Origin: Syntrophotalea acetylenica
GTDB lineage: Bacteria; Desulfobacterota; Desulfuromonadia; Desulfuromonadales; Syntrophotaleaceae
Length of the DNA: 64,000 nt
Reading direction: 5' to 3'
Assembly: GCF_001888165.1 (NCBI RefSeq)
Contig: NZ_CP015455.1
Location: forward strand, 2,908,001 to 2,972,000
The notes under the pieces are model-generated. The model was not told the DNA's origin, made no database searches, and saw nothing but the letters and a program-made list of their open reading frames with translations. The position numbers were made by a program, and so were the translations under genes. Shown in pieces: positions 2,371 through 52,387 of the stretch (the stretch's first letter is position 1; each line of letters starts with the position of its first letter).

Positions 2371-3108
2371 ATGAAAAGACGGAGCGTGTTGTTTCTCGCA
2401 ATGTTCGTGCTGTGCGCCGGGCTGACCACCACCGCCCAGGCCAAGATCGAGGTTGAAGGCGATGTCTACGCAGGCATCTGGGACAAGTACATGTGGCGTG
2501 GTTTCAATCTCAGCGACTCCCGCCCCACCATCCAGGCCGGTATCGACCTGACCCTCGGCAGCGGCTGGACCCTCAGCACCTGGCACAACTGGCAGCTCAC
2601 CAGCGGCCCCAACTGGAATGCCGGCGAACTTAACGAAACCGACGTCATCCTCACCTATGCCTTCGACCTGGGCGACATGATTTCCATGTCGGTGGGCGAC
2701 ATCTGGTACATGATCGAGGGCGAAGACACCAACGAACTGTTCGTCACCTTCACCCTCAACACCCTGCTCTCCCCGAACCTGAAAATCTCCTACGACTGGG
2801 ACCGCGCCGAGGAAGACGGGCTGTTCTACAGCTTCGACATCAGCCACACCTTCGACCTCGGGCAATGGGTTCCCAACACGGCCCTGAACCTTGGGGCCCT
2901 GGTCTCCTACAACCAGCATGCCGACGGCACCGTGGCCGACTATGCCGGCTGGCATAACTACGAGCTGAGCGCCAGCATCGACTATGCCCTGAACGACCAG
3001 ATGACCATCAGCCCGATCTTCATTTTCTCGTCGCCGATCAGCTCGGCCGCCAAGGACCTCATCGACACCGAGACGGCCGCGGCCCTCAACCTGACCTTCG
3101 CTTTCTAG
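2371..3108 (+). CDS. TorF/TIGR02001-like outer-membrane porin, copy 1
   Basis: 245 residues. A Sec signal peptide (residues 1-24, cleavage after TTTAQA) is followed by a beta-rich mature protein beginning KIEVEGDVYAGIWDKYMWRG and ending LNLTFAF with a terminal Phe, as expected for outer-membrane assembly. It resembles the TIGR02001/TorF group of putative porins and presumably forms a channel feeding the periplasmic proteins encoded next. The start is set by GGAGG seven bases upstream of the ATG. It is the first gene of cassette 1. From residue 22 to 10 bp past the stop it is base-for-base identical to the porin of cassette 2, whereas the signal peptides differ. Confidence 0.85.
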   Translation: MKRRSVLFLAMFVLCAGLTTTAQAKIEVEGDVYAGIWDKYMWRGFNLSDSRPTIQAGIDLTLGSGWTLSTWHNWQLTSGPNWNAGELNETDVILTYAFDLGDMISMSVGDIWYMIEGEDTNELFVTFTLNTLLSPNLKISYDWDRAEEDGLFYSFDISHTFDLGQWVPNTALNLGALVSYNQHADGTVADYAGWHNYELSASIDYALNDQMTISPIFIFSSPISSAAKDLIDTETAAALNLTFAF

Positions 3109-3118
3109 GCAGGCGACA
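2434..3118 (+). repeat. 685-bp direct repeat, copy A (mature porin)
   Basis: By direct comparison every base of 2434-3118 equals 11235-11919 (constant offset 8801). The repeat begins three codons before the signal-peptide cleavage site and ends just past the stop codon. The flanking sequences diverge at once on both sides, and the neighbouring cassette genes are related but clearly diverged. Confidence 0.95.
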
Positions 3119-3139
3119 AAGGATCCACAAAACCGGAAA

Positions 3140-3166
3140 CCGGCGGGGGACCAAGTTCCCCGCCGG
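3140..3166 (+). promoter_or_regulatory. Intercistronic hairpin between porin and binding protein, copy 1
   Basis: A nine-base-pair GC stem (CCGGCGGGG / CCCCGCCGG) with a 9-nt loop lies between the porin stop and the next ribosome-binding site, with no T run. It could stabilise the porin mRNA or attenuate transcription. A hairpin of different sequence sits at the same place in cassette 2. Confidence 0.55.
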
Positions 3167-3256
3167 CACCGTTTGACCGGCTTGTTTCCATTCCGGCCAG
3201 GCAGCAACTCAAGGCAACCCACCAACCCCGCACACCAAAACAGCAGGAGGACCACG

Positions 3257-4366
3257 ATGAGAAAGGCATTCTGGAGCGTACCGTTTGTCGGCATCCTGGG
3301 CCTGGTCGCCATCGGCCTGGCACTGGCCCCGGGCTGCAGCAAAACCAAAAAGGAGACCTTGCGCATCACCTGCTGGGCCGGCTACGCCAAACCCTATGTG
3401 GCCGAGTTCCAGAAACTGGTCAAGGAAAAGCACGGCATCGACGTGGAGGTGCAGATTTCCAACCCCACCGATCAGGACGAATTTTTTCAGGCGGTAAAGG
3501 ACAACACCGCTGATCTGATCTCACCGCCCATCGAGCTGCCCAAAACCCCGCGTTTCTATTGTTACACCGCGGGCAGTGAATACCTGCAGCCGGTGGATGT
3601 CAACAACATCCCCAACCTGAAAAACATGATGGCCGTGTTTCGCGACGACATTACGCCCATAAATGCAGGCAACCGCTACGGCGTCCCCTACAACTGCGGT
3701 CCCTATGGACTGGCTTATAACGCGGGCGTCATCGACACCGCGCCGGACACCTGGAACGTTCTGTGGGAACCGCGTTTCGCCGGCAAGTACACCATCAACA
3801 ACAACTTCCCCAAGGTTAACGTCTGGATCACCGCGCTGGCCCTTGGCTACGGCTATGCGGATATCTTCGACATCGAGCGACTTGACCGTGAAAAGATCCA
3901 GCAACAGCTCAATATTCTGGCCCAAAACGCCAAAAGTCTGTGGGACGGCGCCGCCAATCCGGATGAGTTCCCCGAGCTTTCGCTGGCCACCACCTGGGGC
4001 TTCGCAGCCCAGCAGGCCAACCTCAAAGGCGGCAACTGGCGGATCGCGGCTCCCAAAGAAGGCGGAACCGCCTGGATCGATGCCTGGTATCTTGGCGCCG
4101 GCGCCAAAGGCGTGACCAAAACCCTGGCCGAGGAATGGATCAACTTCATGCTTGACCCGGCCCGGCAGGCCGATGTGGTGAAATCCCAGGGCGTCTCACC
4201 CGTCGTGGCCGATACCGGCGACCTCCTCAATGCCGAGGAAAAAGCCATGTTCCACGTCGGCGATGAAAATTACTTCAAAACCGTCGCCCTGTGGCGGGTC
4301 ATGACCGAGGAAACCGAAAAAGCATTCAACGACATGTGGGAGGAGGCGAAAAAACACCGGAAATAG
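3257..4366 (+). CDS. PotD-like extracytoplasmic solute-binding lipoprotein, copy 1
   Basis: 369 residues. The N-terminus is a lipoprotein signal ending LALAPGC with the candidate lipidated cysteine at C27. The mature part is a type-1/PotD-like fold: LRITCWAGYAKPYVAEF near the start, YGVPYNCGPYGLAYN mid-protein, and PKEGGTAWIDAWYLGAGAK with AEEWINFMLDP late, as in spermidine/putrescine-binding proteins. The ligand is probably a small amine; ethanolamine is my inference from the next gene. No permease or ATPase of the matching type is adjacent, which is odd for this family. The start at 3257 follows AGGAGGACCACG. It lies between the porin and the exported EutBC. Confidence 0.85.
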   Translation: MRKAFWSVPFVGILGLVAIGLALAPGCSKTKKETLRITCWAGYAKPYVAEFQKLVKEKHGIDVEVQISNPTDQDEFFQAVKDNTADLISPPIELPKTPRFYCYTAGSEYLQPVDVNNIPNLKNMMAVFRDDITPINAGNRYGVPYNCGPYGLAYNAGVIDTAPDTWNVLWEPRFAGKYTINNNFPKVNVWITALALGYGYADIFDIERLDREKIQQQLNILAQNAKSLWDGAANPDEFPELSLATTWGFAAQQANLKGGNWRIAAPKEGGTAWIDAWYLGAGAKGVTKTLAEEWINFMLDPARQADVVKSQGVSPVVADTGDLLNAEEKAMFHVGDENYFKTVALWRVMTEETEKAFNDMWEEAKKHRK

Positions 4367-4420
4367 AAAACCGCAACATCTCCACTTTGGTATGCGTGTA
4401 AACGAACCTGATACATGGGA

Positions 4421-4440
4421 CCCCGCCAGCAAGGGCGGGA
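4421..4440 (+). promoter_or_regulatory. Hairpin upstream of eutBC copy 1
   Basis: A short inverted repeat (CCCGCC / GGGCGGG) in the 111-bp gap before the exported EutBC gene. There is no T run. It could set relative expression of the binding protein and the enzyme. Confidence 0.4.
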
Positions 4441-4477
4441 AAATTCCCGTGGCTCACCCGAGAAACGGAGGTGTCAC

Positions 4478-6739
4478 ATGCAACGCAGCAGAAAACTTTT
4501 GTACGGCATCACTTTTGGCCTGGCGCTGTGCTTCGTGGCCAGCCTGACCGGAGCCGTCACCGTCAGCGACGTCAAGCCAGGTGAAGATGTCTTCGCCTAC
4601 GTGACACGCGTCAAGGGTCAGTTCGATCAGACCCTTTACCAGCAGGTGGTCGGCGCCGCCAACTCCTTCAAGGAAGGGGACGAGGCAATAGGCGTGGCGG
4701 CCGATAACGACGTCAGCCGCGAAAACGCCCGAAAACTGCTGGCCAACACCAAGATCAAGGATCTGCTGGCCAAGCCCCTGTTCGTGGACGCCCAGTACGA
4801 CCTGATCACCGACACCACCGACAAGGCCCAGTACAACAAGGTCAAAAACTGGACCCTTGGCGAACTCAAGAATTTCATCCTGACCAAGTCCGAAAAAGAA
4901 ATCAAGGGCATCATGTACGGGTTGCACAGCGACATCATCGGCAACGTGGTGAAGCTGATGTCCAACCAGGAACTGACCAAGGTCGGGCAGACGGTCTTCA
5001 ATCCCCTGCCCGGTTCCAAAATCGGAGCCAAGGGTTATTTCAGCGCCCGCATTCAGCCCAACTCACCGACCGACAACCCCGAAGACATCGTCTGGCAGGT
5101 CTTCGATGCCTATTCCTTCGCCGTCGGCGACCTGGTAGTGGGCACCAACCCGGTCGACAGCCAGGAGAGCAGCGTGGAGGCTATCGAACTGGCGCTGCGT
5201 GACGTCATGCAGACCTTTGACGTGGACAAATACAACCCCTGGTGCGTTCTGGCGCATATCGACGTGCAGGCCGCGGTGGAAAAAAACAACCCCGGCAGCA
5301 CCGCCATCTGGTTCCAGAGCCTGGCCGGCGTGGTCGATGCCAACAAGACCTTCGACCTGACTCTGGAAAAAATGATGGATTACGCCAAAATGCGCACCGG
5401 CAAGTACGGTCTCTATCATGAAACCGGACAGGGCGCCGACTTCACCAACGGTCATGGCAAGGGGTTCGACATGGTGGTGCATGAATCGCGCAAATATGGC
5501 TTTGCGCGCGCCCTCAAGCAGCAGGTGGCCGCCGCCCAGACCACCGGCCAGGGTGCCTGGTGCCATGTCAACGATGTGGCCGGATTCATCGGACCGGAAA
5601 TTTTCAAAACCCGCGAGCAGCTGGTGCGCTGCTGCCTGGAAGACATCGCCATGGGCAAGCTGCATGGTCTGATCATTGGCCTTGACATCTGTTCGACGCT
5701 GCACATGCCCGTCACCCTCAACGATCTCGACTGGTGCCAGGACCAGATCGCACCGGCCAACCCCGGGTACATGATGGCCCTGCCGACCAAGAACGACCCG
5801 ATGCTCAGCTACCTGACCACCGCCTATCAGGACCATGTCCGCATGCGTGAAAAGTTCGGTTACAAAATCAACGACGACATGTGGAACTTCTTCAAGAAAA
5901 TCAAAGTCATCGACGCCAACGGCAGGCCCACGGAACATTTTGGCGATCCGATCTGGGTCTACTATCAGTACCGCCTGGCCAAGGGCGACAAGCGCGCCAT
6001 GAAGGAAATCTACGCCGAAGGCCAAAAAGCCGTCGACCGGGTGCAGGGCCGCGGCGTGCCTCTGGCCATCGGCTACGGCAAGAACATCTGGGACCTCGAA
6101 CCGGAACTCGACAAGAAAATTCGTGCCCTTTATGACGACGCCAAGGTCAGCCTGTGGGCCGAATTCACGCCCGAGTTCATCGCCTCCATCCCCAATGCCG
6201 TAACGGTGCAGACCAAATCGGCCGACCGGGAAGACTATGTGGCGCACCCGAGCACCGGCGAGGAATTCAACGACGCCGCCGTGGCAACCCTCAACAAACT
6301 GCGGGCGGCCTGGGGTGGCAAAGCGCCGGACGTACAGGTGATCATTTCCGATGGCCTGAACGCCAAAGCCCTCATGGATGAGAATCACCTCATGCCCTTC
6401 CTTGAAGAACTGCAGGCGCAACTGGCCAAAATGGGCTGGACCCTCGCCAAAGAAAACATCGTGGTCACCAGCGGCCGCGTACGCGCCGGTTATCGCGCCG
6501 GTGAAATCCTGTACACCGACCCCGGCGCCAAACCGAAGGCCATCATCCACATCATCGGCGAACGCCCGGGCAGCGGGCATCACGCCTATTCGGCCTATCT
6601 GACCCGTCTGGCTCCGGCGACCTGGGTGGCAAAAGGCGCCGACCATGACAAAACCAAGGTTATCTCCGGCATCTCCGATACCGGCCTCGAACCGAAAAAA
6701 GCTGCGGGACAGGTTGTAAAACTCCTGCAGGAAATGTAG
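4478..6739 (+). CDS. Exported EutB-EutC fusion ethanolamine ammonia-lyase, copy 1
   Basis: 753 residues. Ethanolamine ammonia-lyase converts ethanolamine to acetaldehyde and ammonia using adenosylcobalamin, normally in the cytoplasm with separate EutB and EutC chains. Here one chain carries EutB (about 30-500) and the catalytic part of EutC (about 550-753, with VQVIISDGLNAKAL and IIGERPGSGHHAYSAYL). Residues matching the E. coli EutB substrate site are present: R191 and Q193 in SARIQPN, N224 in GTNPV, E315 in HETGQG and D403 in GLDICST. The N-terminus is a Sec signal peptide (basic MQRSRK, ~18 hydrophobic residues, LTGA cleavage), giving a periplasmic or membrane-tethered prediction. The ATG at 4478 follows ACGGAGGTGTCAC. 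No eutA reactivase or shell genes are nearby. Confidence 0.88.
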   Translation: MQRSRKLLYGITFGLALCFVASLTGAVTVSDVKPGEDVFAYVTRVKGQFDQTLYQQVVGAANSFKEGDEAIGVAADNDVSRENARKLLANTKIKDLLAKPLFVDAQYDLITDTTDKAQYNKVKNWTLGELKNFILTKSEKEIKGIMYGLHSDIIGNVVKLMSNQELTKVGQTVFNPLPGSKIGAKGYFSARIQPNSPTDNPEDIVWQVFDAYSFAVGDLVVGTNPVDSQESSVEAIELALRDVMQTFDVDKYNPWCVLAHIDVQAAVEKNNPGSTAIWFQSLAGVVDANKTFDLTLEKMMDYAKMRTGKYGLYHETGQGADFTNGHGKGFDMVVHESRKYGFARALKQQVAAAQTTGQGAWCHVNDVAGFIGPEIFKTREQLVRCCLEDIAMGKLHGLIIGLDICSTLHMPVTLNDLDWCQDQIAPANPGYMMALPTKNDPMLSYLTTAYQDHVRMREKFGYKINDDMWNFFKKIKVIDANGRPTEHFGDPIWVYYQYRLAKGDKRAMKEIYAEGQKAVDRVQGRGVPLAIGYGKNIWDLEPELDKKIRALYDDAKVSLWAEFTPEFIASIPNAVTVQTKSADREDYVAHPSTGEEFNDAAVATLNKLRAAWGGKAPDVQVIISDGLNAKALMDENHLMPFLEELQAQLAKMGWTLAKENIVVTSGRVRAGYRAGEILYTDPGAKPKAIIHIIGERPGSGHHAYSAYLTRLAPATWVAKGADHDKTKVISGISDTGLEPKKAAGQVVKLLQEM

Positions 6740-6800
6740 CACCTGCCGGGTCACCGGCGCTGCTGCCGGTGACCTGACAGTTCCTGTTGTTTCGATCAGC

Positions 6801-6845
6801 AAAGGCGTAACGGTCATCTTTTCGCCGTTACGCCTTTATTTGATT
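6801..6845 (+). terminator. Terminator-like hairpin after eutBC copy 1
   Basis: A 13-bp perfect stem (AAAGGCGTAACGG / CCGTTACGCCTTT) with an 11-nt loop, followed by a T-rich tract. It probably terminates or attenuates transcription before the membrane-protein gene. Confidence 0.7.
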
Positions 6846-6902
6846 GTGCATGCCGGCCTTCCGGCCTGTGCTGGCAACCCCGAGGTATAAAGACACCATT
6901 GC

Positions 6903-7742
6903 ATGGACCCTGACATCCCACCCATACCGCCGCAGGACGAACCGCCCCTTGTGGACCACCGGCGCCCGGGCCTGGTGCGCGAAGTTTTGCATAAAACGCA
7001 ACTTTGGGGTCACGCCCTGGCAATCAGCCCATTTTACCGCTTCGGCGAAGCGGGAAATCTCATGTACACGGTCGGTAAAGGCATCCTGGAAGGAGCGGTG
7101 CTTTACACCATGTTCAGCATGGCGCAGACCGAATACCAGGTCGCCGCGATCCTGGGGGTGTTGACCAAATACATCTACCCGGCCATCACCTTCGTCAGCA
7201 GCGTCAAGGTTTCCTCCTTCGTCGATCACCTGGAACGTCATGACAACAAACAATACCAGATGCAAAAGCTCATCGACGGGCTGATGATTATCGGCGTTGG
7301 ACAGACTCTCGGCGCTTTGATGCTGGTATTGTGTTATCCGCCGTTTTTCAGCGCCTGCTTCGACGGTTGGGGCATCAGCCGCTATCTGCTCATCGCCCTG
7401 TATCTGCTGCATCACATCTTCGACGGTTCGGCCCAGGTTGCCGAAGGACGCATCTGGTTCAAACTCATCGAAATCAAGCTGCGCCACGGTAAACTGGCCC
7501 GCATCTCCGGAAATTTCTGGGGCATCCATGCCATGAGTCAGAACATCCAGCTGATACTCGGCCTGATCCTGCTATGGGGAGCCACTTTAATTACGGGGCT
7601 GCATCGCCAGCGTCTCGATGCCGCAATCATGTGGGGCGTCGTTCTGAGCGGCACCCTGCTGACCGGCTTTGCCAAATTCTGCCTGCCCCTGGCCTGGTTT
7701 CTGCGCCTGCGCCATCAGCCGCAATCCGACTCCCCCGACTGA
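6903..7742 (+). CDS. Multi-pass membrane protein of unknown family, copy 1
   Basis: 279 residues, no family recognised. After a hydrophilic, proline-rich N-terminus (~25 residues) there are about five or six hydrophobic segments: around YTVGKGILEGAVLYTMFSMA, VAAILGVLTKYIYPAITFVS, MIIGVGQTLGALMLVLCYPP, LLIALYLLHHIFDGSAQ, QLILGLILLWGATLITGL and AIMWGVVLSGTLLTGFAKF. Conserved blocks shared with copy 2 include EGRIWFKLIEIKLRHG and NFWGIHAMSQNIQLI. It is the last gene of cassette 1, separated from eutBC by a hairpin. Its constant pairing with exported EutBC suggests a role in transport of substrate, product or cofactor, but no motif proves it. The ATG at 6903 has only a distant GAGG upstream. Confidence 0.8.
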   Translation: MDPDIPPIPPQDEPPLVDHRRPGLVREVLHKTQLWGHALAISPFYRFGEAGNLMYTVGKGILEGAVLYTMFSMAQTEYQVAAILGVLTKYIYPAITFVSSVKVSSFVDHLERHDNKQYQMQKLIDGLMIIGVGQTLGALMLVLCYPPFFSACFDGWGISRYLLIALYLLHHIFDGSAQVAEGRIWFKLIEIKLRHGKLARISGNFWGIHAMSQNIQLILGLILLWGATLITGLHRQRLDAAIMWGVVLSGTLLTGFAKFCLPLAWFLRLRHQPQSDSPD

Positions 7743-7751
7743 GCCATAAGC

Positions 7752-7782
7752 AAATCCCCCCTTTTGGGGGATGGCCTTTTAC
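7752..7782 (+). terminator. Probable terminator of cassette 1
   Basis: Inverted repeat ATCCCCC / GGGGGAT with a short T-containing loop, followed by GGCCTTTT, just after the membrane-protein stop and before the riboswitch. Confidence 0.55.
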
Positions 7783-7868
7783 GCGCCTATCGGCTAAAAA
7801 CAGAAGCAGGCGGGAAGGTCAGCGCGGCAACCTTATGATGGCGGCCTTCCCGCCGTACAATTCGACCA

Positions 7869-8028
7869 GGGACAGGTGCCATACAAGCCTGACAGGGAAG
7901 ACGGTGTAAATCCGTCGCGGTCCCGCCGCTGTAACCGGTGACGATGGCCACACAATGCCACTTTTCGCGCGTGAAAGGGAAGGCGTGGCCGGCAGGATGA
8001 TCCGGAAGCCAGAAGACCTGCCTGTCCC
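7869..8028 (+). promoter_or_regulatory. AdoCbl (cobalamin) riboswitch upstream of the cobD-cobQ fusion
   Basis: Typical cobalamin-aptamer landmarks occur in order: GGTGCC, AGCCTGACAGGGAA, GGTGTAAATCC, CGCGGTCCCGCCGCTGTAACC, GGGAAGGC, and the closing GGAAGCCAGAAGACCTGCC. The outer stem pairs GGGACAGG (7869-7876) with CCTGTCCC (8021-8028). By family behaviour it should switch off the downstream biosynthesis gene when adenosylcobalamin is plentiful. Confidence 0.93.
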
Positions 8029-8113
8029 GCACAGGTGCTGTCGCGGCCTTCGCGGATTGAAGCCTGACAATTCAGGGCCGTGTGCATGGATTTTTCTGGC
8101 GGATAAAAACGGT

Positions 8114-8147
8114 ATCCCCGGAGCTTCTGGCTCCGGGATTTTTGCTT
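8114..8147 (+). terminator. Riboswitch-linked terminator before cobD-cobQ
   Basis: A strong stem (ATCCCCGGAGC, TTCT loop region, GCTCCGGGAT) followed by TTTTTGCTTTT lies between the aptamer and the start codon. It is placed to act as the expression platform of the upstream riboswitch. Confidence 0.8.
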
Positions 8148-8160
8148 TTGGGGGCAAAGC

Positions 8161-10761
8161 ATGAACGACACGCAAAGCTTTCGGGTGCACCACGCGACCC
8201 ACCTTCGGCAGCTGGCCATGACTGCCGGAGTGGACCCCGATAAGCTGCTCGACTTTTCGGCCAGCACCAACCCCCTGGGTCCGCCCGAATGGCTGCGGGC
8301 GCGTATCAGCGCCAGCATCAGCGCCCTGCCACACTACCCCGAGCCCGGCAACCAGGCGCTGATCGAAGCCGCCTGCCAGCGCTACGGCGTTACCGCCTAC
8401 CAAATCATCGCCGGCAACGGATCCACCGAACTGATTTACCTGCTCCCCCGTGCCCTCCGGGCGCGGCACGCGCTGATTCCCGTACCGAGCCATCCTGTTT
8501 ACGCCACCGCGGCGAAAGTCGCGGGGCTGGCGGTGCATCTTATGCCCCTTGCCGCCGAAGACGGTTTCGCCCTGGATTTCGACCGCCTCGAAACCGCCCT
8601 GCAGCAATCCGGCGAGGGGCCACGAGTGGTGTTTCTGGGGCAACCGAACAATCCCGCCGGCACCATCTTCGACGCCCTGCGAATACGGTATCTGGCCGGC
8701 CGGTTTCCGGCAACCACCTTCGTCGTCGACGAAGCCTTTGGCGATTTTGTGGAGGATTTCGACAGCCTTACCGCCAGCCGGCCCGCCAATGTGGTGGTCA
8801 TGCTGTCCCTGACCAGGGTTTTTGCCATCCCCGGCCTGCGTCTCGGACTCGCCGTCGCTTCCCCTTCCATAGTGCAGAAGATCGAAGCGCTGCAACCGCC
8901 CTGGTCGGTCAACACCCTTGCCCAGAAAGTCGGCGTCGACGCCCTGCGCGACACCGCATACCTGCAAACATCCCGCACTGCCGTGGCCTCCCTGCGCAGC
9001 ACCCTGCGCCGGCAGCTCGAACAGATCCCCTACCTCACCGTATATCCGGGTGAAGCGACGTTCCTGCTGATCCGCTGCGATCATCGATCGATGGATGCCC
9101 GCGCCCTGGCCTCGCGCCTCATCAAACGGGGTTTGGCTATCCGTGTCTGCGACAACTTCGAGGGGCTCGACGGGCGCTATTTCCGGGTTGCGGTGCGCAA
9201 CGAAGCGGAAAATCGCCAACTGGTGGGGGCCTTGCGCCAGGAGCTGTTCATGGCGCCGCTGGTCACGGCCCGGCGGCGTACCCCGGCCATCATGTTCCAG
9301 GGCACCGGCTCCAGCGTCGGCAAAAGTGTCCTGACCGCCGCCCTGTGCCGCATCATGCTGCAGGACGGCTACCGGGTAGCACCCTTCAAAGCCCAGAACA
9401 TGGCCATCAATTCCTTCAGCACGCCCGATGGCGGGCAGATGGGGCACACCCAGGCGGTGCAGGCCCAGGCCGCCCGTCTCGATCCGGATGTGCGCATGAA
9501 TCCGATCCTGCTCAAACCGGACAGCGATCAGGGCAGTCAGGTCGTGTTGTGCGGCAAGCCGGTCGGCACTATGCGGCTGATGGATTTTTTCCGTTACAGG
9601 ACCGAGGCGTTCGAGCAGGCCAGGGAGTGCTATGATGCGCTGGCCGGCGAATACGATGCCATGCTACTGGAGGGTGCCGGCAGTCCCGCCGAAGTCAATC
9701 TCAAGGCGCATGACATCGTCAACATGAAAATGGCCCTGCATGCCAGCGCACCGGTGCTGATGGTCGGTGATATCGACCTCGGCGGCGTATTCGCCTCCTT
9801 CGTCGGCTCCATGGAAGTTTTGTCGGAACGCGAGCGGAGCCAGGTAGCCGGTTTTGTCATCAACCGCTTCCGCGGCCGCACCGACCTGCTCAAGGATGCC
9901 CTCGACTACACGCTGCGACACACCGGCCGTCCGGTGCTCGGCGTGGTTCCTTACCTGGAAAACCTTGGGCTTTTCGGGGAGGATTCCGTCGGGATCAAAG
10001 GCGGCCTGTTCCATGACGGCGAATGCGCCGGGGATAGCGTCGATATCGCCGTGCTCGATCTGCCGCACATTTCCGGTTTCACCGACCTCGAGCCGCTGCG
10101 TATCGAACCGGATGTGCGCCTGCGGACGGTGCGACGCGGACAGGACCTGGGCCGGCCCGATGCCATCATCCTGCCGGGGAGCAGAAATGTCATCGGCGAC
10201 CTCACCTTTTTACGCGCCGTCGGCCTCGACCGGATTCTGCAGCAAAGGGCACAGGAAGGCGGTTGCGAAATTATCGGCCTCTGCGGCGGATATCAGATCC
10301 TCGGCCGCTCCATCTGCGACGTTCATGGCCTCGAATCGCCGGGAACCAATCTGGTCGGCCTCGACCTGCTGCCCATCGACACGGTCCTGCACCCGGAAAA
10401 GGCCCTTGTGCGGACCGAAGCACGCCACCGCATTTCGGGCCTGAAGGTTGGCGGTTATGCCATCCATCATGACCAGAACCGCAGCGGCCCGGCACCGCCT
10501 GCACTGATCGACAACAACGGCCAGGCGCTGGGCGCCTGCCGTGGCGACGGCCTGGTGTGGGGCAGTTACCTCCACGGCCTGTTCGATTCGGACGGTTTCC
10601 GCCGCTGGTTCATCGATCGGTTGCGCCAACGCAAGGGGCTCAGACCCCTCGGCACCGTACAGGCCTGTTACGACCTGGAACCGGCTTTCGAGCGACTCGC
10701 CGACGCGGTAAGGCAGAGCCTCGATATTTCCGCCATCTATCGACTCATGGGGCTGCGCTGA
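8161..10761 (+). CDS. CobD-CobQ fusion: threonine-phosphate decarboxylase-like domain plus cobyric acid synthase
   Basis: 866 residues in two parts. Residues ~1-365 are CobD-like (PLP fold; LDFSASTNPLGPP, GNGSTELIY, GQPNNPAGT, VVDEAFGDF and IPGLRLGL are seen), the enzyme type that makes aminopropanol phosphate for the cobamide linker. The Schiff-base lysine expected in SLTK is arginine here (SLTR, R219), so decarboxylase activity is doubtful. Residues ~375-866 are CobQ/CbiP: GTGSSVGKSVLTAALCRIM and FKAQNMAINS for ATP, and IIGLCGGYQILG with GSYLHGLFD for the glutamine amidotransferase Cys and His; it amidates the corrin ring. It follows an AdoCbl riboswitch and sits between the two exported-EutBC cassettes. 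Confidence 0.9.
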   Translation: MNDTQSFRVHHATHLRQLAMTAGVDPDKLLDFSASTNPLGPPEWLRARISASISALPHYPEPGNQALIEAACQRYGVTAYQIIAGNGSTELIYLLPRALRARHALIPVPSHPVYATAAKVAGLAVHLMPLAAEDGFALDFDRLETALQQSGEGPRVVFLGQPNNPAGTIFDALRIRYLAGRFPATTFVVDEAFGDFVEDFDSLTASRPANVVVMLSLTRVFAIPGLRLGLAVASPSIVQKIEALQPPWSVNTLAQKVGVDALRDTAYLQTSRTAVASLRSTLRRQLEQIPYLTVYPGEATFLLIRCDHRSMDARALASRLIKRGLAIRVCDNFEGLDGRYFRVAVRNEAENRQLVGALRQELFMAPLVTARRRTPAIMFQGTGSSVGKSVLTAALCRIMLQDGYRVAPFKAQNMAINSFSTPDGGQMGHTQAVQAQAARLDPDVRMNPILLKPDSDQGSQVVLCGKPVGTMRLMDFFRYRTEAFEQARECYDALAGEYDAMLLEGAGSPAEVNLKAHDIVNMKMALHASAPVLMVGDIDLGGVFASFVGSMEVLSERERSQVAGFVINRFRGRTDLLKDALDYTLRHTGRPVLGVVPYLENLGLFGEDSVGIKGGLFHDGECAGDSVDIAVLDLPHISGFTDLEPLRIEPDVRLRTVRRGQDLGRPDAIILPGSRNVIGDLTFLRAVGLDRILQQRAQEGGCEIIGLCGGYQILGRSICDVHGLESPGTNLVGLDLLPIDTVLHPEKALVRTEARHRISGLKVGGYAIHHDQNRSGPAPPALIDNNGQALGACRGDGLVWGSYLHGLFDSDGFRRWFIDRLRQRKGLRPLGTVQACYDLEPAFERLADAVRQSLDISAIYRLMGLR

Positions 10762-11171
10762 CCCTCGAATCACCGCACCGGAACGGGCCGGCAGCGGCAG
10801 CATCCGACTAGTGGCACGGAACCTTTGGCAGGCCATTCGCGTAAAAGTGGCATGCCGGCGGCGTCCTGGACAAACGGCATTTGCAAACTCCCGTGCGGGC
10901 GTCTCGCCCCGGCAATCCCGAAACGCACCTCCCTTCAAGATTTCCTGTACCCCACCGTGCTTCATCCCCCGATTGGGGAGTAAAATTCCCCTCCGTTGGG
11001 GGATACTCCCGCCTGCCTTTCCTGAGGTATTTTATTTCTCGGATATCGGCAGGTTTTATCCTGCCCCCTGTAAAACCGCGTTTTTCCAATCACCGCGTTC
11101 GCGGGCGGTTTGTTTTCCGGATTTCCCGGAAAATTCATTGCCCCTTTTTCATCCCCATGGAGGTGTATCGT
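10762..11171. other. Leader region of the second porin gene
   Basis: 410 bp without a convincing gene. Near 10966-11013 there are repeated C-rich/G-rich arms (CCCCCGATTGGGG, TTCCCCTCCGTTGGGGGA) and near 11050-11075 a GCAGG/CCTGC hairpin. The porin start is preceded by CATGGAGGTGTATCGT; the CATGGAGGT piece also precedes porin 1, but the rest of the leader is different. No known riboswitch class recognised. Confidence 0.4.
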
Positions 11172-11909
11172 ATGAAAAAGTGGAGTGTGTTACTGGTTTC
11201 CGTCTTCATGCTGGCCGTTGGCTTCGCCAGCCAGGCCCAGGCCAAGATCGAGGTTGAAGGCGATGTCTACGCAGGCATCTGGGACAAGTACATGTGGCGT
11301 GGTTTCAATCTCAGCGACTCCCGCCCCACCATCCAGGCCGGTATCGACCTGACCCTCGGCAGCGGCTGGACCCTCAGCACCTGGCACAACTGGCAGCTCA
11401 CCAGCGGCCCCAACTGGAATGCCGGCGAACTTAACGAAACCGACGTCATCCTCACCTATGCCTTCGACCTGGGCGACATGATTTCCATGTCGGTGGGCGA
11501 CATCTGGTACATGATCGAGGGCGAAGACACCAACGAACTGTTCGTCACCTTCACCCTCAACACCCTGCTCTCCCCGAACCTGAAAATCTCCTACGACTGG
11601 GACCGCGCCGAGGAAGACGGGCTGTTCTACAGCTTCGACATCAGCCACACCTTCGACCTCGGGCAATGGGTTCCCAACACGGCCCTGAACCTTGGGGCCC
11701 TGGTCTCCTACAACCAGCATGCCGACGGCACCGTGGCCGACTATGCCGGCTGGCATAACTACGAGCTGAGCGCCAGCATCGACTATGCCCTGAACGACCA
11801 GATGACCATCAGCCCGATCTTCATTTTCTCGTCGCCGATCAGCTCGGCCGCCAAGGACCTCATCGACACCGAGACGGCCGCGGCCCTCAACCTGACCTTC
11901 GCTTTCTAG
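11172..11909 (+). CDS. TorF/TIGR02001-like outer-membrane porin, copy 2
   Basis: 245 residues. The signal peptide (residues 1-24, ending ASQAQA) differs from copy 1, but the mature protein is identical in every residue and every base. It should form the same outer-membrane channel as copy 1, so the two differ only in expression and export. The ATG at 11172 follows GGAGGTGTATCGT. It opens cassette 2, which continues through the binding protein, EutBC and membrane protein into a cobalamin-type ABC importer. Confidence 0.85.
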   Translation: MKKWSVLLVSVFMLAVGFASQAQAKIEVEGDVYAGIWDKYMWRGFNLSDSRPTIQAGIDLTLGSGWTLSTWHNWQLTSGPNWNAGELNETDVILTYAFDLGDMISMSVGDIWYMIEGEDTNELFVTFTLNTLLSPNLKISYDWDRAEEDGLFYSFDISHTFDLGQWVPNTALNLGALVSYNQHADGTVADYAGWHNYELSASIDYALNDQMTISPIFIFSSPISSAAKDLIDTETAAALNLTFAF

Positions 11910-11919
11910 GCAGGCGACA
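11235..11919 (+). repeat. 685-bp direct repeat, copy B (mature porin)
   Basis: Identical to 2434-3118 by direct comparison. The identity stops abruptly on both sides while the surrounding paralogous genes are clearly diverged. This pattern is expected of recent gene conversion rather than of a recent block duplication. Confidence 0.95.
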
Positions 11920-11945
11920 GCCGGACGGAAGTCCCCGTAACAAAT

Positions 11946-11978
11946 CATGGGCGGGGCCGCGATGCGGCCCCCGCCATG
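11946..11978 (+). promoter_or_regulatory. Intercistronic hairpin between porin and binding protein, copy 2
   Basis: A long GC stem (CATGGGCGGGGCCGC / GCGGCCCCCGCCATG with one mismatch) and a three-base loop, without a T run. It occupies the same position as the unrelated hairpin at 3140-3166. Confidence 0.6.
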
Positions 11979-12069
11979 ATGCCGGCGCCATGCCCGAAGC
12001 CCGGGAACTCTGCGACGGGTAAATATCAACGCCGTTTTTCTGAAACCCGCACGCGTCAGGAGGAACGTC

Positions 12070-13194
12070 ATGAAAAGAACCTTGTGGGGAGCCGTCTCCG
12101 CCACGGCGGCCATGGTGGCCGCCGGCAGTCTGCTGCTGACCCCCGCCTGCACCAAACAGGAAAACACCCGGCCCGCCAAGGAAACCCTGCGCATTACCTG
12201 CTGGGCCGGCTATGCCAAACCCTATGTGGAAGATTTTCAGAAACTGGTCAGGGAAAAGTACAATGTCGATGTCGACGTGCAGATCCATAATCCCACAGAT
12301 CAGGACGAATTTTTCCAGGCGGTGAAAAACAACACGGCGGACCTGATCTCACCGCCCATCGAGCTGCCCAAAATCCCACGTTTCTTTTCCTACCAGGAAG
12401 GCAGCCAGTACCTGCAGCCGGTGGACGTGAACAACATCCCGAACCTGGCCAGAATGATGCCGGTGTTCCGCGACGATCAGACCCCCTTCCACAATGGCGT
12501 GCGCTACGGCGTGCCCTATAACTGCGGCCCCTACGGTCTGGCCTACAACCGCGACAAGGTCGTCGAAGCACCCGCCAGCTGGAACGTGCTGTGGGATCCT
12601 CAGTACGCCGGGCAGTACACCATCAACAACAACTTCCCCAAGGTCAACGTCTGGATCGCGGCCCTGGCCCTCGGCTACGGCTATGAGGACATCTTCGATA
12701 TCAACAAACTCGACCGTGCGAAAGTTCAGGAAAAGCTCAACGCCTTGGCCAAAAACGCCAGAAGCCTGTGGGACGGCGCCGCCAACCCGGACGAATTCCC
12801 GGAACTGGCCCTGGCCACCACCTGGGGATTTGCCGCCCAGGCCGCCAACCTTAAAGGCGGCAACTGGCGCCTGGCGACCCCGGCTGAGGGCGGCACCGCC
12901 TGGATCGATTGCTGGTATCTCGGCGCCGGCGCCAGGGACATGACCAAAACCCTGGCCGAAGAGTGGATCAATTTCTCCCTGGATCCCGAAAGGCAGGCCG
13001 ATGTGGTCAAGTCCCAGGGCGTCTCACCTGTCATGGCCGATACCGGCGACCTCCTCAATGCCGAGGAAAAAGCCATGTTCCATGTGGGAGACGAAGCCTA
13101 TTTCAAAACCGTGGCCCTGTGGCGGGTTCTCAGCGAAGAAACGGAACAGGCTTTCAACGCCATGTGGGAAGAAGCCAGGCAGCAGCGTCAATAA
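12070..13194 (+). CDS. PotD-like extracytoplasmic solute-binding lipoprotein, copy 2
   Basis: 374 residues, clearly homologous to copy 1 over its whole length but diverged. The lipoprotein signal ends LLLTPAC with the candidate lipidated cysteine at C26. The PotD-like landmarks LRITCWAGYAKPYVEDF, YGVPYNCGPYGLAYN and EGGTAWIDCWYLGAGA are present. As in cassette 1 there is no cognate permease, so it may deliver its ligand to the exported EutBC or to the cassette membrane protein rather than to a classical PotABC importer; that is inference. The ATG at 12070 follows AGGAGGAACGTC. Confidence 0.85.
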   Translation: MKRTLWGAVSATAAMVAAGSLLLTPACTKQENTRPAKETLRITCWAGYAKPYVEDFQKLVREKYNVDVDVQIHNPTDQDEFFQAVKNNTADLISPPIELPKIPRFFSYQEGSQYLQPVDVNNIPNLARMMPVFRDDQTPFHNGVRYGVPYNCGPYGLAYNRDKVVEAPASWNVLWDPQYAGQYTINNNFPKVNVWIAALALGYGYEDIFDINKLDRAKVQEKLNALAKNARSLWDGAANPDEFPELALATTWGFAAQAANLKGGNWRLATPAEGGTAWIDCWYLGAGARDMTKTLAEEWINFSLDPERQADVVKSQGVSPVMADTGDLLNAEEKAMFHVGDEAYFKTVALWRVLSEETEQAFNAMWEEARQQRQ

Positions 13195-13221
13195 CCGGTC
13201 GCGGGCGACGCACGCCGCCGT

Positions 13222-13259
13222 CCGCATAACCCGATTTTGCCCGCGCCCGCGTTATGCGG
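13222..13259 (+). promoter_or_regulatory. Hairpin upstream of eutBC copy 2
   Basis: A nine-base-pair stem (CCGCATAAC / GTTATGCGG) around a GC-rich 20-nt loop in the 105-bp gap before eutBC 2. It is positionally equivalent to the hairpin at 4421-4440 but unrelated in sequence. Confidence 0.45.
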
Positions 13260-13299
13260 CGGGCGGGATCGCCCCATCAGACAAGACGGAGGTAACCGA

Positions 13300-15567
13300 A
13301 TGTTAAAAAAGGGAAAACTCGCAGCAGGCATTACCGGCGCCCTGGTAATGACCTTCCTGGCCGGGATGGCCGGGGCCGTCACCATCGGCAGCATCAAGCC
13401 CGGTGAGGATGTGTTTCAGTATGTCAATCGCAGCAAGGGCAAGTTCGATCTGAGCCTTTATCAACAGGTCATCGGCGCCGCCAACGCTTTCAAGGAAGGC
13501 GACGAGGGGCTCGGTGTTGCCGCGGATAGCGAAATGTCCCGTCAAAACGCCCGCAAGCTGCTGGCGAACACCAGAATCAAGGACATTTATGACAACCCGC
13601 TGTTTGTGGACGGGCAGGAAAAACTGATCCGCAAAACCACCGACAAGGCCAAATACAACAAGATCAAGAGTATGACCATGGGCGAGCTGAAGCACTTTTT
13701 GCTCACCAGACCGGAAGCCGACATCAAGTCCATCATGGGCGGCCTGCACAGCGATGTGATCGGCTCGGTGGTCAAACTCATGTCCAACGACGAACTGATT
13801 CGCGTCGGCCAGAAAATCTTCAATACCCTGCCCGGTTCCAAAATCGGCGCCAAGGGCTATCTGAGCGCCCGCATCCAGCCCAACTCGCCGACCGACAACA
13901 AGGAAGACATTCAGCTGCAGGTTCTGAACGGCTTCGCCTACGCGGTGGGCGATATCGTTATCGGCACCAACCCGGTCGACAGCCAGCTTGAAGCCACCTT
14001 GCGGGTCGAAAACGCCCTGAAGGAAATCGTCACGGCCTTCAAACTCGAAAAGACGGTACCCTGGTGCGTTCTGGCCCACATCGACGGCCAGGCCGCCGCC
14101 GAAAAGGAAGTGCCCGGCTCCACCGCCATCTGGTTCCAGAGCCTGGCCGGTACCGAGAGCGCCAACAAGACCTTCGATCTGACCATCCAGAAGATGATCG
14201 ACTACGCGAAAATGCGTAAAGGTCCGTACGGTCTCTATTTCGAAACCGGCCAGGGGGCCGACTACACCAACGGCCACGGCCACGGCTTCGACATGGTGGT
14301 GCATGAATCCCGCAAATACGGCTTCGCCCGCGCCCTGCAGCAGGAAATCGCCAGAACCAAGGGCGTGCCCGCCGACCAGGTCTGGCTGCACCTCAATGAC
14401 GTTGCCGGTTTCATCGGTCCCGAGGTGTTCAAAACCCGCGAACAGCTGGTGCGCTGCTGTCTGGAAGATATCGTCATGGGCAAACTGCACGGCCTGGTGC
14501 TGGGTCTTGACATCTGCTCGACCCTGCACATGCCCGTCACCCTCGACGACCTGGAGTGGTGCCAGGACCAGATCGCTCCGGCCAACCCGGCCTATCTGAT
14601 GGCCCTTCCTACCCGCAATGACCCGATGCTCAGCTACCTGACCACCGGCTTCCAGGACCATGTCCGCCTGCGCGAAAAGTTCGGCTTCAAGGTCAACGAC
14701 GCCATGTGGAAATTTTTCCAGAAAATCGAAGTCATCGACGCCAAGGGCAAACCGACCAAACACTTCGGCGACCCGGCCTGGGTCTACTACAAATTCCGCC
14801 AGGCCAAGGGCGACAAGCGGTCCTTCAAAGAGATCTACGCTGAAGGTCAAAAGTCGATTGCCAATGTTCGCGGCCGCGGCGTCGACATGGCCGTGGGTTA
14901 CGGGAAAAACATCTGGGACCTGGAACCGGTCACCAACAAGCGTATCCACGACCTGTATGACGACGCCAAAGTCAGCCTGTGGGCCGAATTCACCCCCGAA
15001 TTCATCAACTCCATCCCCAACGCAGTGAGCATCAAGAGCCAGTCCCACGACCGCGAAAACTACATCGCCGCGCCTTCCACCGGCGAAGAGTTGTCCAAAG
15101 CCGCCGTGGCCACCCTGCAGAAGCTGTCAGCCACCTGGGGCGGCAAAGCTCCCGACGTGCAGGTAGTGATTTCCGATGGTCTGAACGCCAGGGCCATCAT
15201 GGATGACGGGCATCTGATGCCTTACCTCAATGAGCTGAAGAAACAGTGTAAAAAAGCCGGCATGTCCCTGTCGGACAAAAACATCGTCGTGACCGGCGGC
15301 CGGGTGCGCGCTGGATACAAGGCCGGCGAAGTCCTGTACGGCAAGGCCGGCAGCAAGCCCAAAGCCATCGTTCACATCATCGGCGAACGCCCCGGCAGCG
15401 GCCATCATGCCTTCTCCGCCTATCTGGTCAAGGTGCAGCCTGGCACCTGGGCCAAGGCCGGCGCGGTCGACCACGACCAGTCCAAGGTTCTGTCCGGCAT
15501 TTCCGACACGGGTCTGCTTCCCGCCGAAGCCGCCCGCCAGACGGTCAAGCTGCTGATGGAAATGTAA
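13300..15567 (+). CDS. Exported EutB-EutC fusion ethanolamine ammonia-lyase, copy 2
   Basis: 755 residues, same architecture as copy 1: Sec signal peptide (MLKKGK, hydrophobic core, GMAGA cleavage before VTIGS), EutB, then EutC without its N-terminal extension. Substrate-site motifs are intact: SARIQPN (Arg, Gln), GTNPV (Asn), YFETGQG (Glu) and GLDICST (Asp). EutC landmarks VQVVISDGLNAR and HIIGERPGSGHHAFSAYL are near the C-terminus. The two copies are diverged yet both keep an export signal and all active-site residues, which argues that export is functional. The ATG at 13300 follows ACGGAGGTAACCGA. It would need adenosylcobalamin outside the cytoplasm or export after loading; a cobalamin-type importer lies downstream. 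Confidence 0.88.
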   Translation: MLKKGKLAAGITGALVMTFLAGMAGAVTIGSIKPGEDVFQYVNRSKGKFDLSLYQQVIGAANAFKEGDEGLGVAADSEMSRQNARKLLANTRIKDIYDNPLFVDGQEKLIRKTTDKAKYNKIKSMTMGELKHFLLTRPEADIKSIMGGLHSDVIGSVVKLMSNDELIRVGQKIFNTLPGSKIGAKGYLSARIQPNSPTDNKEDIQLQVLNGFAYAVGDIVIGTNPVDSQLEATLRVENALKEIVTAFKLEKTVPWCVLAHIDGQAAAEKEVPGSTAIWFQSLAGTESANKTFDLTIQKMIDYAKMRKGPYGLYFETGQGADYTNGHGHGFDMVVHESRKYGFARALQQEIARTKGVPADQVWLHLNDVAGFIGPEVFKTREQLVRCCLEDIVMGKLHGLVLGLDICSTLHMPVTLDDLEWCQDQIAPANPAYLMALPTRNDPMLSYLTTGFQDHVRLREKFGFKVNDAMWKFFQKIEVIDAKGKPTKHFGDPAWVYYKFRQAKGDKRSFKEIYAEGQKSIANVRGRGVDMAVGYGKNIWDLEPVTNKRIHDLYDDAKVSLWAEFTPEFINSIPNAVSIKSQSHDRENYIAAPSTGEELSKAAVATLQKLSATWGGKAPDVQVVISDGLNARAIMDDGHLMPYLNELKKQCKKAGMSLSDKNIVVTGGRVRAGYKAGEVLYGKAGSKPKAIVHIIGERPGSGHHAFSAYLVKVQPGTWAKAGAVDHDQSKVLSGISDTGLLPAEAARQTVKLLMEM

Positions 15568-15589
15568 CAGGCCTCCTATCCCTGAAATC

Positions 15590-15620
15590 GGCCCGGGCGG
15601 TGTTGCCCGGGCCAGCTTTT
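15590..15620 (+). terminator. Terminator-like hairpin after eutBC copy 2
   Basis: Perfect 9-bp stem GGCCCGGGC / GCCCGGGCC with a 6-nt loop, followed by AGCTTTTCC. It matches in position the hairpin after eutBC 1 and may be an attenuator, since downstream genes appear to belong to the same operon. Confidence 0.6.
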
Positions 15621-15733
15621 CCTCCCTCTGCCCGACGTTCCGCCCCCTGCTTCCGGCCGGAATGCGGATTCTGTAACGTAAATCACCGGGCCGCATCCCC
15701 GCGGCCCGGCTTTCCGGTGACCGCCGTCAGGAT

Positions 15734-16561
15734 ATGTCTATGCCCGAAACAGCTCTGAACACTTCCATGCCGGCGCCCCATCCCCGATCCCGCTCCCTGT
15801 GGCGGGAAGTCATGCACAAAACCGCTCTCTGGATGCAGGCCCTGGCATCAAGTCCCTATTATCGCTATGGCGAGATCGGCAACCTGTTGTACACTTTCGG
15901 TAAAAGCATTCTGGAAGGGGCGGTGCTCTACACCATGTTTTCCATGGCCCAGACCGAATTCAAGGTCGCGGCGATTCTCGGCGTGTTGACGAAATACTTT
16001 TATCCGGGCATCACTTTTATCAGCAACGTCAAGGTTTCCGCCTTCGTCGACTGTCTGGAGCGTTTTGCCGACCTCCGCCTCCAGGTGCGGCGGCTGATCG
16101 GCGCCATGGCGCTGGTGGGCGGCGGGCAGGCGCTGGGTGCGATACTCCTGCTGCTGTGCTACCCGCCTCTGTTCAACACCCTGTTCGGATCCATGGCGGG
16201 CGGGCGCTACGTGCTTATCGTTTTGTACCTGCTGCACCATATCTGCGACGGTTCGGCCCAGGTCGCCGAGGGACGCATCTGGTTCAAGCTGATCGAGATC
16301 AAGCTGCGCCACGGGCGTCTGAGCCGCATTTCGGAAAATTTCTGGGGCATTCACGCCATGAGTCAGAACATCCAGTTGATCGCCGGACTTGTCCTGCTGT
16401 GGGGAACGACCCTGACCACCGGCCTGTTTCAGGATTGCCTCGGCCATGCCGTGATGTGGGGCATCGTGCTGAGCGGAACCCTGCTTACCGCCCTGTCCAA
16501 ATTCAGCCTGCCGCTGGCCTGGCAACTCACCCTGCGCCACCGGATGCAAGAGGAAGAATGA
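15734..16561 (+). CDS. Multi-pass membrane protein of unknown family, copy 2
   Basis: 275 residues, homologous end to end with the protein at 6903. It has about five or six hydrophobic segments, including YTFGKSILEGAVLYTMFSMA, ALGAILLLLCYPPLF, LIVLYLLHHICDGSAQVAEG, LIAGLVLLWGTTLTTGL and GIVLSGTLLTALSKF, and the shared blocks EGRIWFKLIEIKLRHG and NFWGIHAMSQNIQLI. I do not recognise the family. Its stop codon overlaps the start of the following ABC ATPase by four bases (ATGA), so the two are translationally coupled. This suggests a link to the cofactor or substrate importer. An alternative ATG lies two codons in (15740). Confidence 0.8.
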   Translation: MSMPETALNTSMPAPHPRSRSLWREVMHKTALWMQALASSPYYRYGEIGNLLYTFGKSILEGAVLYTMFSMAQTEFKVAAILGVLTKYFYPGITFISNVKVSAFVDCLERFADLRLQVRRLIGAMALVGGGQALGAILLLLCYPPLFNTLFGSMAGGRYVLIVLYLLHHICDGSAQVAEGRIWFKLIEIKLRHGRLSRISENFWGIHAMSQNIQLIAGLVLLWGTTLTTGLFQDCLGHAVMWGIVLSGTLLTALSKFSLPLAWQLTLRHRMQEEE

Positions 16562-26496: not shown

Positions 26497-26552
26497 GTCA
26501 ACAAATTGGAAAAAGTCTTTGACAACAGCATCAGCACCTGACGCAAAATTCC

Positions 26553-26650
26553 GATCTCCGAGCCTCGCTGCCTACTGGGAAGGTCCTTATGGCGACAGGC
26601 CGAAGGGTTCCGCTGGAAACAGTGGCGCCTCCCTCTCTGGAAAGGAGATT
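26553..26650 (+). promoter_or_regulatory. Probable Moco/Tuco (molybdenum or tungsten cofactor) riboswitch
   Basis: The leader has the look of the Moco RNA motif: outer stem TCTCC...GGAGA, CCGAGCCTCGCTGCC, ACTGGGAAGGTC, GGCCGAAGGG, a GNRA-type hairpin CGCTGGAAACAGTGGCG, and a final TCTCTGGAAAGGAGA hairpin. It precedes a gene for a tungsten-type aldehyde:ferredoxin oxidoreductase, which fits cofactor sensing. The motif is called from memory of the consensus; a covariance-model search would settle it. Confidence 0.72.
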
Positions 26651-26698
26651 TCACCCGGAACCATTCCAAGAAAAGCAAAATTGGGAGGAAGCAAGACA

Positions 26699-28762: not shown

Positions 28763-28828
28763 TTTTTTCTATAACCGCCTGATCTTCCTTTACAATTCGG
28801 TTCAATCACGCTATCTTTCATGAGTATA

Positions 28829-52200: not shown

Positions 52201-52245
52201 CATTTCCCGGCCAGTCCTTTAGAGTTTGCGCTACATAAAAGCTGT

Positions 52246-52340: not shown

Positions 52341-52387
52341 GGGAACGATGAGGATGGAGCCGTCAGCAACAGCACGCATTCGATCGT

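Follow-up and report, generated by a model that had tools for sequence, protein, structure and literature searches.

The closest described counterpart of the genes treated here comes from P. carbinolicus, for which a paper of 2012 (PMC3543383) recorded, in its main text, two copies of ethanolamine ammonia-lyase (EutBC) that are 70% identical, the absence of eutA, and a third paralogue of the fourth neighbour of these genes, adjoining an ammonium transporter, and suggested that ethanolamine or choline is taken up. Where it treats these genes, the paper makes no mention of the lyase being exported, and in its main text the word “exported” occurs 0 times and “signal peptide” three times, in relation to cytochromes and pili. 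The present analysis deals with a window of 64,000 nucleotides on the forward strand of Syntrophotalea acetylenica (genome G000, 3.2 Mb; GCF_001888165.1, NZ_CP015455.1, positions 2,908,001-2,972,000, G000:C1), in which two genes encode EutB-EutC fusions that are very probably exported from the cytoplasm, judging by sequence comparison. The explanation considered probable for the system as a whole is an extracytoplasmic ethanolamine ammonia-lyase dependent on adenosylcobalamin (AdoCbl).

The two genes belong to cassettes located on the same (+) strand at 2371-7742 and 11172-16561, in the order porin, binding lipoprotein, EutB-EutC fusion and a membrane protein here called MEM, which agrees in position and gene order with the initial annotation of two cassettes at 2371-16561. 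Fusion 1 (P0003, 753 residues, 4478-6739) and fusion 2 (P0007, 755 residues, 13300-15567) are 70% identical, and they are the only two EutB proteins in the whole S. acetylenica genome. That EutB and EutC form a single chain was confirmed by profiles, given that each fusion matches both PF06751 (EutB; 486 and 493 bits, cut-off 25, E 9e-146 and 9e-148) and PF05985 (EutC; 124.5 and 113.5 bits against 25.8, E 6e-36 and 1e-32). Both also exceed the cut-off of NF011649 (648 and 649 bits; cut-off 554) and fall short of the stricter EutC equivalog NF003971 (97 and 88 bits; cut-off 230). An AlphaFold2 model of P0003, with a predicted local distance difference test score (pLDDT) of 83.8, matched the E. 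coli structure 3abo_A at E 7.6e-28 (TMt 0.87).

Each fusion opens with a segment that reads as a signal peptide of the general secretory (Sec) type, located at 4478-4555 in fusion 1 (26 residues) and at 13300-13377 in fusion 2, with the cleavage sites positioned by eye after MQRSRKLLYGITFGLALCFVASLTGA and before VTVS in the former, and after MLKKGKLAAGITGALVMTFLAGMAGA and before VTIG in the latter. The initial assignment of a Sec-type signal to both proteins is upheld by the K/R-containing n-region, the hydrophobic h-region and the small-x-A motif, by the position of the sole ATG with a good ribosome site, which is upstream of the hydrophobic run, and by the codons themselves. Protein-level constraint acts on the signal codons, with a ratio of nonsynonymous to synonymous change (pN/pS) of 0.49 in copy 1 (against 4 orthologues) and 0.24 in copy 2 (against 5), the next 100 codons giving 0.13 and 0.19, respectively. 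In the model of P0003, residues 1-24 have a pLDDT below 50 and form a single helix at 6-21.

Relatives were searched in 277 genomes of the class (60 matched), in 395 of the phylum (36 matched) and in six contigs from a pattern scan, which yielded, after the removal of duplicates, a clade sample of 58 genes with at least 50% identity to P0003 and a readable N-terminal region (genes and loci are cited by L numbers, genomes by G numbers). A hydrophobic export-type N-terminus, scored as a run of 12 uncharged residues with a mean hydropathy of at least 1.6 ahead of the EutB core, was found in 57 of these 58 genes, together with at least two K/R residues in the n-region (53/58), a small-x-A site under a loose definition (57/58) and, ahead of the run, an ATG backed by a ribosome site (54/58). 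Among controls taken from these searches, the scan was positive in one of 13 low-identity fusions and two of 28 split EutB proteins, and all three cases are artefacts: the run of L043 is upstream of all start codons in its frame, that of L122 is the tail of a neighbouring gene ahead of a stop codon, and the fragment L047 has its core outside the frame. Once these are removed, a real hydrophobic N-terminus is present in none of the 41 cytoplasmic-type EutB controls.

These data bear directly on the alternative of a cytoplasmic enzyme, in which the N-terminus would be an inward-facing membrane anchor, or would be skipped by an internal start, while the cassette imports ethanolamine. Characterised EutBC is cytoplasmic or enclosed in a shell, at least in the part of PMC5821096 that treats it, the binding lipoprotein and MEM were interpreted as uptake proteins in the main text of PMC3543383 (2012), and some downstream start candidate is found in part of the clade. 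This alternative is nonetheless improbable, given the frequency of charged n-regions and small-x-A sites, the constraint on the signal codons, the lack of a comparable segment in the controls and the twin-arginine translocation (Tat) motifs that some clade members carry, which would be pointless in a cytoplasmic protein.

Signal types were assigned by hand in the 58 clade genes, giving 49 of Sec type (L034 included), eight of Tat type with xRRxF-like motifs (L008, L024, L033, L037, L109, L113, L114 and L115), and the unusual L007. A Tat signal was also present in all four plasmid relatives read from Sinorhizobium and Pararhizobium (L150-L153, the gene of L150 lying at 8959-11307; e.g., GLTRRDLLLMAGATATLASYSHAAKSA), which are 58-61% identical to P0003; the plasmid search returned 148 records, 51 of them spanning more than 80% of the query, with more distant EutB-EutC pairs among those counted. 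Quick trees were built from 64 and 68 proteins with the signal region left out, and their starred branches place one Tat clade within the Sec radiation (Sinorhizobium being included in the larger tree) and require the signal type to have changed twice. At least one switch between Sec and Tat is needed, and two are likely.

This exchange of the export machine with the retention of export is as expected if selection favours a place outside the cytoplasm, and a cytoplasmic enzyme does not explain it. The interchange amounts to a natural experiment, and the relative on pSymA of S. meliloti offers a tractable host in a model symbiont; in the annotated pSymA record, the gene is named EutB and is close to phosphoketolase and glycosyl transferase genes. 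Cytoplasmic-type EutB-EutC fusions also exist in the same phylum and form a clade of their own (L039-L044 and L144), at 34-36% identity to the exported ones. The extracytoplasmic location proposed at annotation is strongly supported on comparative grounds, i.e., by signals throughout the clade, by the Sec/Tat interchange, by envelope-protein neighbours and by controls that lack such signals. The survey of signal-bearing fusions and their neighbours suggested at the same time gave signals in 57 of 58 genes, with envelope proteins beside them in several families.

Several observations weigh against an exported radical enzyme. Nine of the 58 clade genes have some downstream start candidate. In six the site is weak (four bases), while stronger sites occur in L032 and L035, from one three-gene clade, and in L008, where the site lies within a conserved region. 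Orthologues starting past the hydrophobic segment had been named in the initial annotation as the finding that would speak against export; 54 of 58 have an ATG with ribosome-site support upstream of that segment, these nine being the ones that have a candidate downstream. L007, from Cyclobacteriaceae, fails the hydrophobic-run scan and has an unusual start (SRKTFL...WNAC), L037 carries a Tat motif with no start codon upstream in frame, and L034 is truncated by the end of its contig; these three, with L115, whose upstream ATG has a poor site, are the exceptions to the upstream start. A single origin of the Tat genes as one clade passes the approximately unbiased (AU) test (p 0.09), so that two switches are less than certain. 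Finally, two invariant cysteines, C405 and C420, would be unusual outside the cytoplasm, as would the AdoCbl radical cofactor itself.

The likely substrate of the enzyme is ethanolamine or an amino alcohol close to it, as far as its residues allow a prediction. Residues R191, Q193, N224, E315 and D403 of P0003 align with R160, Q162, N193, E287 and D362 of E. coli EutB (3abo), which we take to be the contacts with ethanolamine, and deamination of this substrate is inferred because they are invariant. They are unchanged in 64 of 64 aligned rows, in which the two window proteins are counted again beside the 58 genes of the clade and four from plasmids, as well as in 19 of 19 relatives in another alignment, and are thus kept in Desulfobacterota, in a Cyclobacteriaceae gene and in the Rhizobiaceae plasmid genes. 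The EutC motifs SDGLN, GRVR and GERPG are also retained.

It is rather unlikely that the exported enzyme uses another amine, with one copy acting on choline (as put forward in PMC3543383), 2-aminopropanol or a headgroup-derived amine, and the two copies possibly differing in substrate. Against it stand the invariance of all five contact residues and the cleavage of choline in anaerobes that is known from a glycyl-radical enzyme. A difference in substrate would agree with the retention of two diverged cassettes in several genomes, with a binding lipoprotein whose closest, weak likeness is to polyamine binders, and with the proposal, in the main text of PMC3543383, that ethanolamine and choline may each have a lyase of their own.

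The loss of lyase activity, leaving an envelope protein that serves as a reservoir, sensor or scavenger of corrinoid or amine and feeds the adjacent importer, is improbable to much the same degree as a cytoplasmic enzyme. AdoCbl is not made outside the cytoplasm, which favours this idea, as do the lack of EutA and the presence nearby of a corrinoid-type importer and a BtuB-like receptor. Against it stand the conservation of the contact residues from Desulfobacterota to the Cyclobacteriaceae gene and the Rhizobiaceae plasmids, the absence of such an importer beside EutBC in the Tat loci, and the recurrence of aldehyde oxidoreductase genes near EutBC (7/48 loci).

As annotated, the cassettes contain no EutA, bacterial microcompartment (BMC) or other eut gene. 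No BMC match was found anywhere in the S. acetylenica genome, nor in 46 of the 47 other genomes that have clade members (G028 alone matched), so that a microcompartment was dropped as an explanation; EutH had no match in the whole S. acetylenica genome. The sole match to the EutA profile, of 44 positions, falls inside an FtsA-like frame flanked by FtsQ- and FtsZ-like frames (named by eye) and was rejected. Given the lack of BMC matches, it is extremely improbable that the N-terminal extension is a peptide for encapsulation in a microcompartment: such a peptide of EutC was demonstrated by fusion to green fluorescent protein, according to the part of PMC5821096 concerned, while the segment seen here is hydrophobic with a charged n-region rather than an amphipathic helix.

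MEM, the unnamed membrane protein that follows each fusion as annotated (P0004 at 6903-7742; P0008 at 15734-16561), exceeds no Pfam or NCBIfam cut-off in either copy, and copy 1 has no real match in PHROGs. Its model (pLDDT 91; predicted template modelling score, pTM, 0.85) consists of long helices bundled together, with six read as membrane-spanning, and the charged residues E181, R183, K187, E190 and R194 are invariant at the end of one long helix. Foldseek returned nothing at E <0.001 for this model, and VIA-align gave Z scores of 13-15 (maximum 15.2) over about 200 residues with transporters of the major facilitator superfamily (MFS), often with one half of them, and with ferroportin, values that may be at chance level for helical proteins; the Pfam MFS profile does not match MEM. 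The model thus gives a hint of likeness to half an MFS transporter, and a half-size MFS-like carrier acting as a dimer is possible.

In whole-genome searches, MEM accompanies 41 of 48 Sec-type genes and none of the eight Tat-type genes, with L038 (fewer than 600 residues), L007 (signal type unsure, genome unsearched) and gene pieces lacking the N-terminus left out of the comparison. Among the 48 loci examined, 33 contain MEM, and an ATP-binding cassette (ABC) importer comes after it in 27 of them (26 distinct places, L006 and L098 being the same). Around the eight Tat loci, no porin, lipoprotein, MEM or importer of this kind was found in the DNA examined, whose upstream flank is short in L141 (370 bases) and L143 (704 bases). 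L142 has a match at 24% identity that was rejected as a generic ABC ATPase. MEM likewise has no match in the genomes of the eight Tat loci or on 72,556 plasmids.

The presence of MEM in genomes also follows that of the lyase for the most part, since a clade EutBC match was found in 36 of the 40 genomes with a MEM match (25 and 15 others). EutBC remains only as pieces without an N-terminus in three MEM genomes (G029, G601 and G612); in G114 the contig ends just upstream of MEM and EutBC has no match, and G526 and G565 have no EutBC match, a broken MEM and intact frames of the ABC importer. A strict tie between the two is weakened by G439, which has an intact MEM with at least the ABC ATPase (at a contig end) and no EutBC match, and by G316, which retains the EutBC frame and the importer while MEM is reduced to its two ends, a 48-position match counted among the 41; this assembly is 85% complete, and an assembly fault is possible.

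An exported lyase of this kind would work in the following manner. EutB and EutC are synthesised as one chain that, as the sequence suggests, leaves the cytoplasm, in this organism through Sec. Ethanolamine would enter the periplasm by the TorF-type porin and be bound by the lipoprotein, which may pass it to the enzyme, and cleavage to acetaldehyde and ammonia would then occur in the periplasm, as the invariant residues imply. The uncharged acetaldehyde would diffuse into the cell and be disproportionated in the cytoplasm, where the product of the aldehyde:ferredoxin oxidoreductase-type gene at 26660 may take part, and the ammonia would remain outside. With acetaldehyde made outside and diffusing in, both an ethanolamine transporter and a shell become unnecessary.

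The central question is then how AdoCbl gets to an enzyme outside the cytoplasm, given that it is made inside, with ATP, and would have to reach the exported chain. Tat export can carry a loaded enzyme and Sec export cannot; more speculatively, the Tat-type relatives could exit with the cofactor already bound, and in the Sec-type systems MEM may carry AdoCbl outward while the BtuCD-like importer may return spent corrinoid for re-adenosylation, in place of EutA. The association of MEM and the corrinoid-type importer with Sec, and not with Tat, fits such a shuttle, in a correlative manner and with exceptions in both directions.

The evidence for the shuttle is opposed by several facts. The link between MEM and Sec comes down to two independent pairs and is not significant; seven of the 48 Sec genes have no MEM (L019, L032, L034, L035, L102, L110 and L112), of which the clade L032, L034 and L035 may be a different case, because it includes both of the best internal starts and one gene cut by a contig end; and G439 and G316, described above, part MEM from EutBC in either direction. 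The importer is assigned to corrinoids by profiles below their cut-offs, and a cobalamin riboswitch above threshold was found in none of seven Sec loci of other genomes. A part for MEM in the movement of cofactor or substrate is put forward only tentatively, and its involvement in AdoCbl export specifically is doubtful, both being rated slightly lower because G316 keeps EutBC with a remnant of MEM.

Equally doubtful is the most far-reaching idea, that no AdoCbl radical enzyme before this one worked outside the cytoplasm and that a dedicated shuttle serves it, in which MEM exports AdoCbl to the Sec-exported apoenzyme, the importer returns corrinoid, and the Tat relatives need neither. Were it true, MEM would be a bacterial cobamide exporter, of which we know none. 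An AdoCbl radical enzyme outside the cytoplasm would, for its part, overturn the assumption that AdoCbl and its reactivation belong inside the cell, and would represent a shell-free way of keeping the production of toxic acetaldehyde out of the cytoplasm. It makes testable both the outward passage of AdoCbl across the inner membrane and the rescue of a self-inactivating enzyme without EutA.

The remaining genes of the cassettes are envelope proteins as well. The porin said to precede each fusion is an outer-membrane protein with a signal peptide at 2371-3108 (P0001), above the cut-off of the TorF (Gcw_chp) family TIGR02001 (49.7 bits; cut-off 47.15), and its counterpart lies at 11172-11909. 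The DNA of the mature porins is identical (666/666 bases), within an identical stretch of 685 bases (2434-3118 and 11235-11919) behind which the sequences differ and ahead of which only 46 of 72 signal-codon bases are equal. This is a sharp and recent tract of gene conversion over the porin genes; the aligned bases shared elsewhere are 869/1107 in the lipoprotein genes, 1666/2259 in EutBC and 585/825 in MEM. The same comparison of mature porins gave 666/696 in G117 and 75-87% in five other relatives. A third porin paralogue, 59% identical, is present in the same genome outside the window (G000:C1:2216343-2217086).

The binding lipoproteins, located at 3257-4366 (with the lipobox-like signal LALAPGC) and 12070-13194, match PF13343 (SBP_bac_6) at E 6e-48 and 4e-49, which sustains their annotation as binding proteins; the amine type also assigned to them is less secure, as the likeness to the polyamine binders PotD and YdcS in NCBIfam is far under the cut-offs. 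No ABC permease or ATPase that could serve the lipoprotein was found within the cassette. In several families, Sec-type EutBC again has the porin, the lipoprotein and MEM around it, in varying order and orientation. A B12-binding radical S-adenosylmethionine (SAM) protein (DUF4080, 286-2007) is immediately ahead of cassette 1, as in several relatives.

Genes related to corrinoids are found between and behind the cassettes, on the + strand as well. A cobalamin riboswitch (7857-8039, 113.4 bits) precedes a gene (8161-10761) in which CobD (threonine-phosphate decarboxylase) and CbiP/CobQ (cobyric acid synthase) are fused in one chain, each above its own NCBIfam cut-off. This riboswitch as a conserved controller of the cassettes is unsupported, since in the window it is located before cobD-cbiP, and none was above threshold in eight further loci (six Tat loci, L091 and L094). 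Directly after cassette 2 are the genes of the importer, i.e., an ABC ATPase (16552-17334), whose best NCBIfam profile is the corrinoid ATPase PRK09536 (240 bits; cut-off 537), a Peripla_BP_2 periplasmic binding protein (17276-18382), and a FecCD/BtuC-type permease (18366-19421) with BtuC PRK09535 as its best profile (257 bits; cut-off 461). MoxR and vWA genes sit downstream of this importer; at 19480-20507, a MoxR frame of 221 residues is followed by an overlapping frame of 126 residues, possibly one frameshifted gene.

Farther along the same strand, the aldehyde:ferredoxin oxidoreductase-type gene (26660-28081) has a Mo/W-cofactor riboswitch ahead of it (26544-26663), and homologues were found near EutBC in seven of 48 loci, one of them at just 34% identity, with L138 (25%) excluded. 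Its frame has 473 codons with partial C-terminal Pfam cover, so a frameshift or truncation is possible. A BtuB-like TonB-dependent receptor (29134-31068; TIGR01779, 386 bits, under the cut-off of 599.7) is preceded by a second cobalamin riboswitch (28821-28997), and a SAM riboswitch (52245-52354, 80.9 bits) is distant from the cassettes.

Compared with the enzymes of known structure from E. coli (3abo) and Listeria (2qez), the fusions are alike in the EutB and EutC domains, in fold, in substrate-contact residues and in EutC loop motifs, and they differ in forming a single chain, in the export signal, in having no EutA, shell or EutH that could be found, and in an identity of 31-32% over EutB. 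The cytoplasmic-type fusions of the phylum share the fused chain, at the low identity given above, and form a separate clade without an export signal, whereas the Sinorhizobium and Pararhizobium plasmid enzymes are closer (58-61% identity to P0003) and differ by their Tat signal and the lack of a MEM match on plasmids. Unlike EutBC, reductive dehalogenases carry out no adenosyl radical chemistry, have another fold and contain Fe-S clusters. They nevertheless provide a precedent, since enzymes such as PceA are cobamide-dependent and have a signal peptide of the Tat type, in the part of PMC5500849 that concerns it.

Beyond PMC3543383, no paper describing these genes was found with the literature and terms searched, and the same searches found none joining ethanolamine ammonia-lyase with twin-arginine, or ethanolamine ammonia with meliloti and pSymA. 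The system of P. carbinolicus (eutBC1 and eutBC2; Pcar_0491 and Pcar_0467), as given in the main text of PMC3543383, shares the duplicate fusion, the binding protein and the multi-helix protein, as well as a fourth neighbouring gene, of which a third paralogue exists, the cobalamin genes in between, and the ABC and BtuB-like genes behind. The initial view that no equivalent had been described, then, does not stand for the duplicated fusions and their neighbours, and it stands for their export, which that paper leaves unmentioned where it treats them. The new part is the export of the lyase and the interchange of Sec and Tat, set upon a duplicated fusion and a neighbourhood already known from P. 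carbinolicus.

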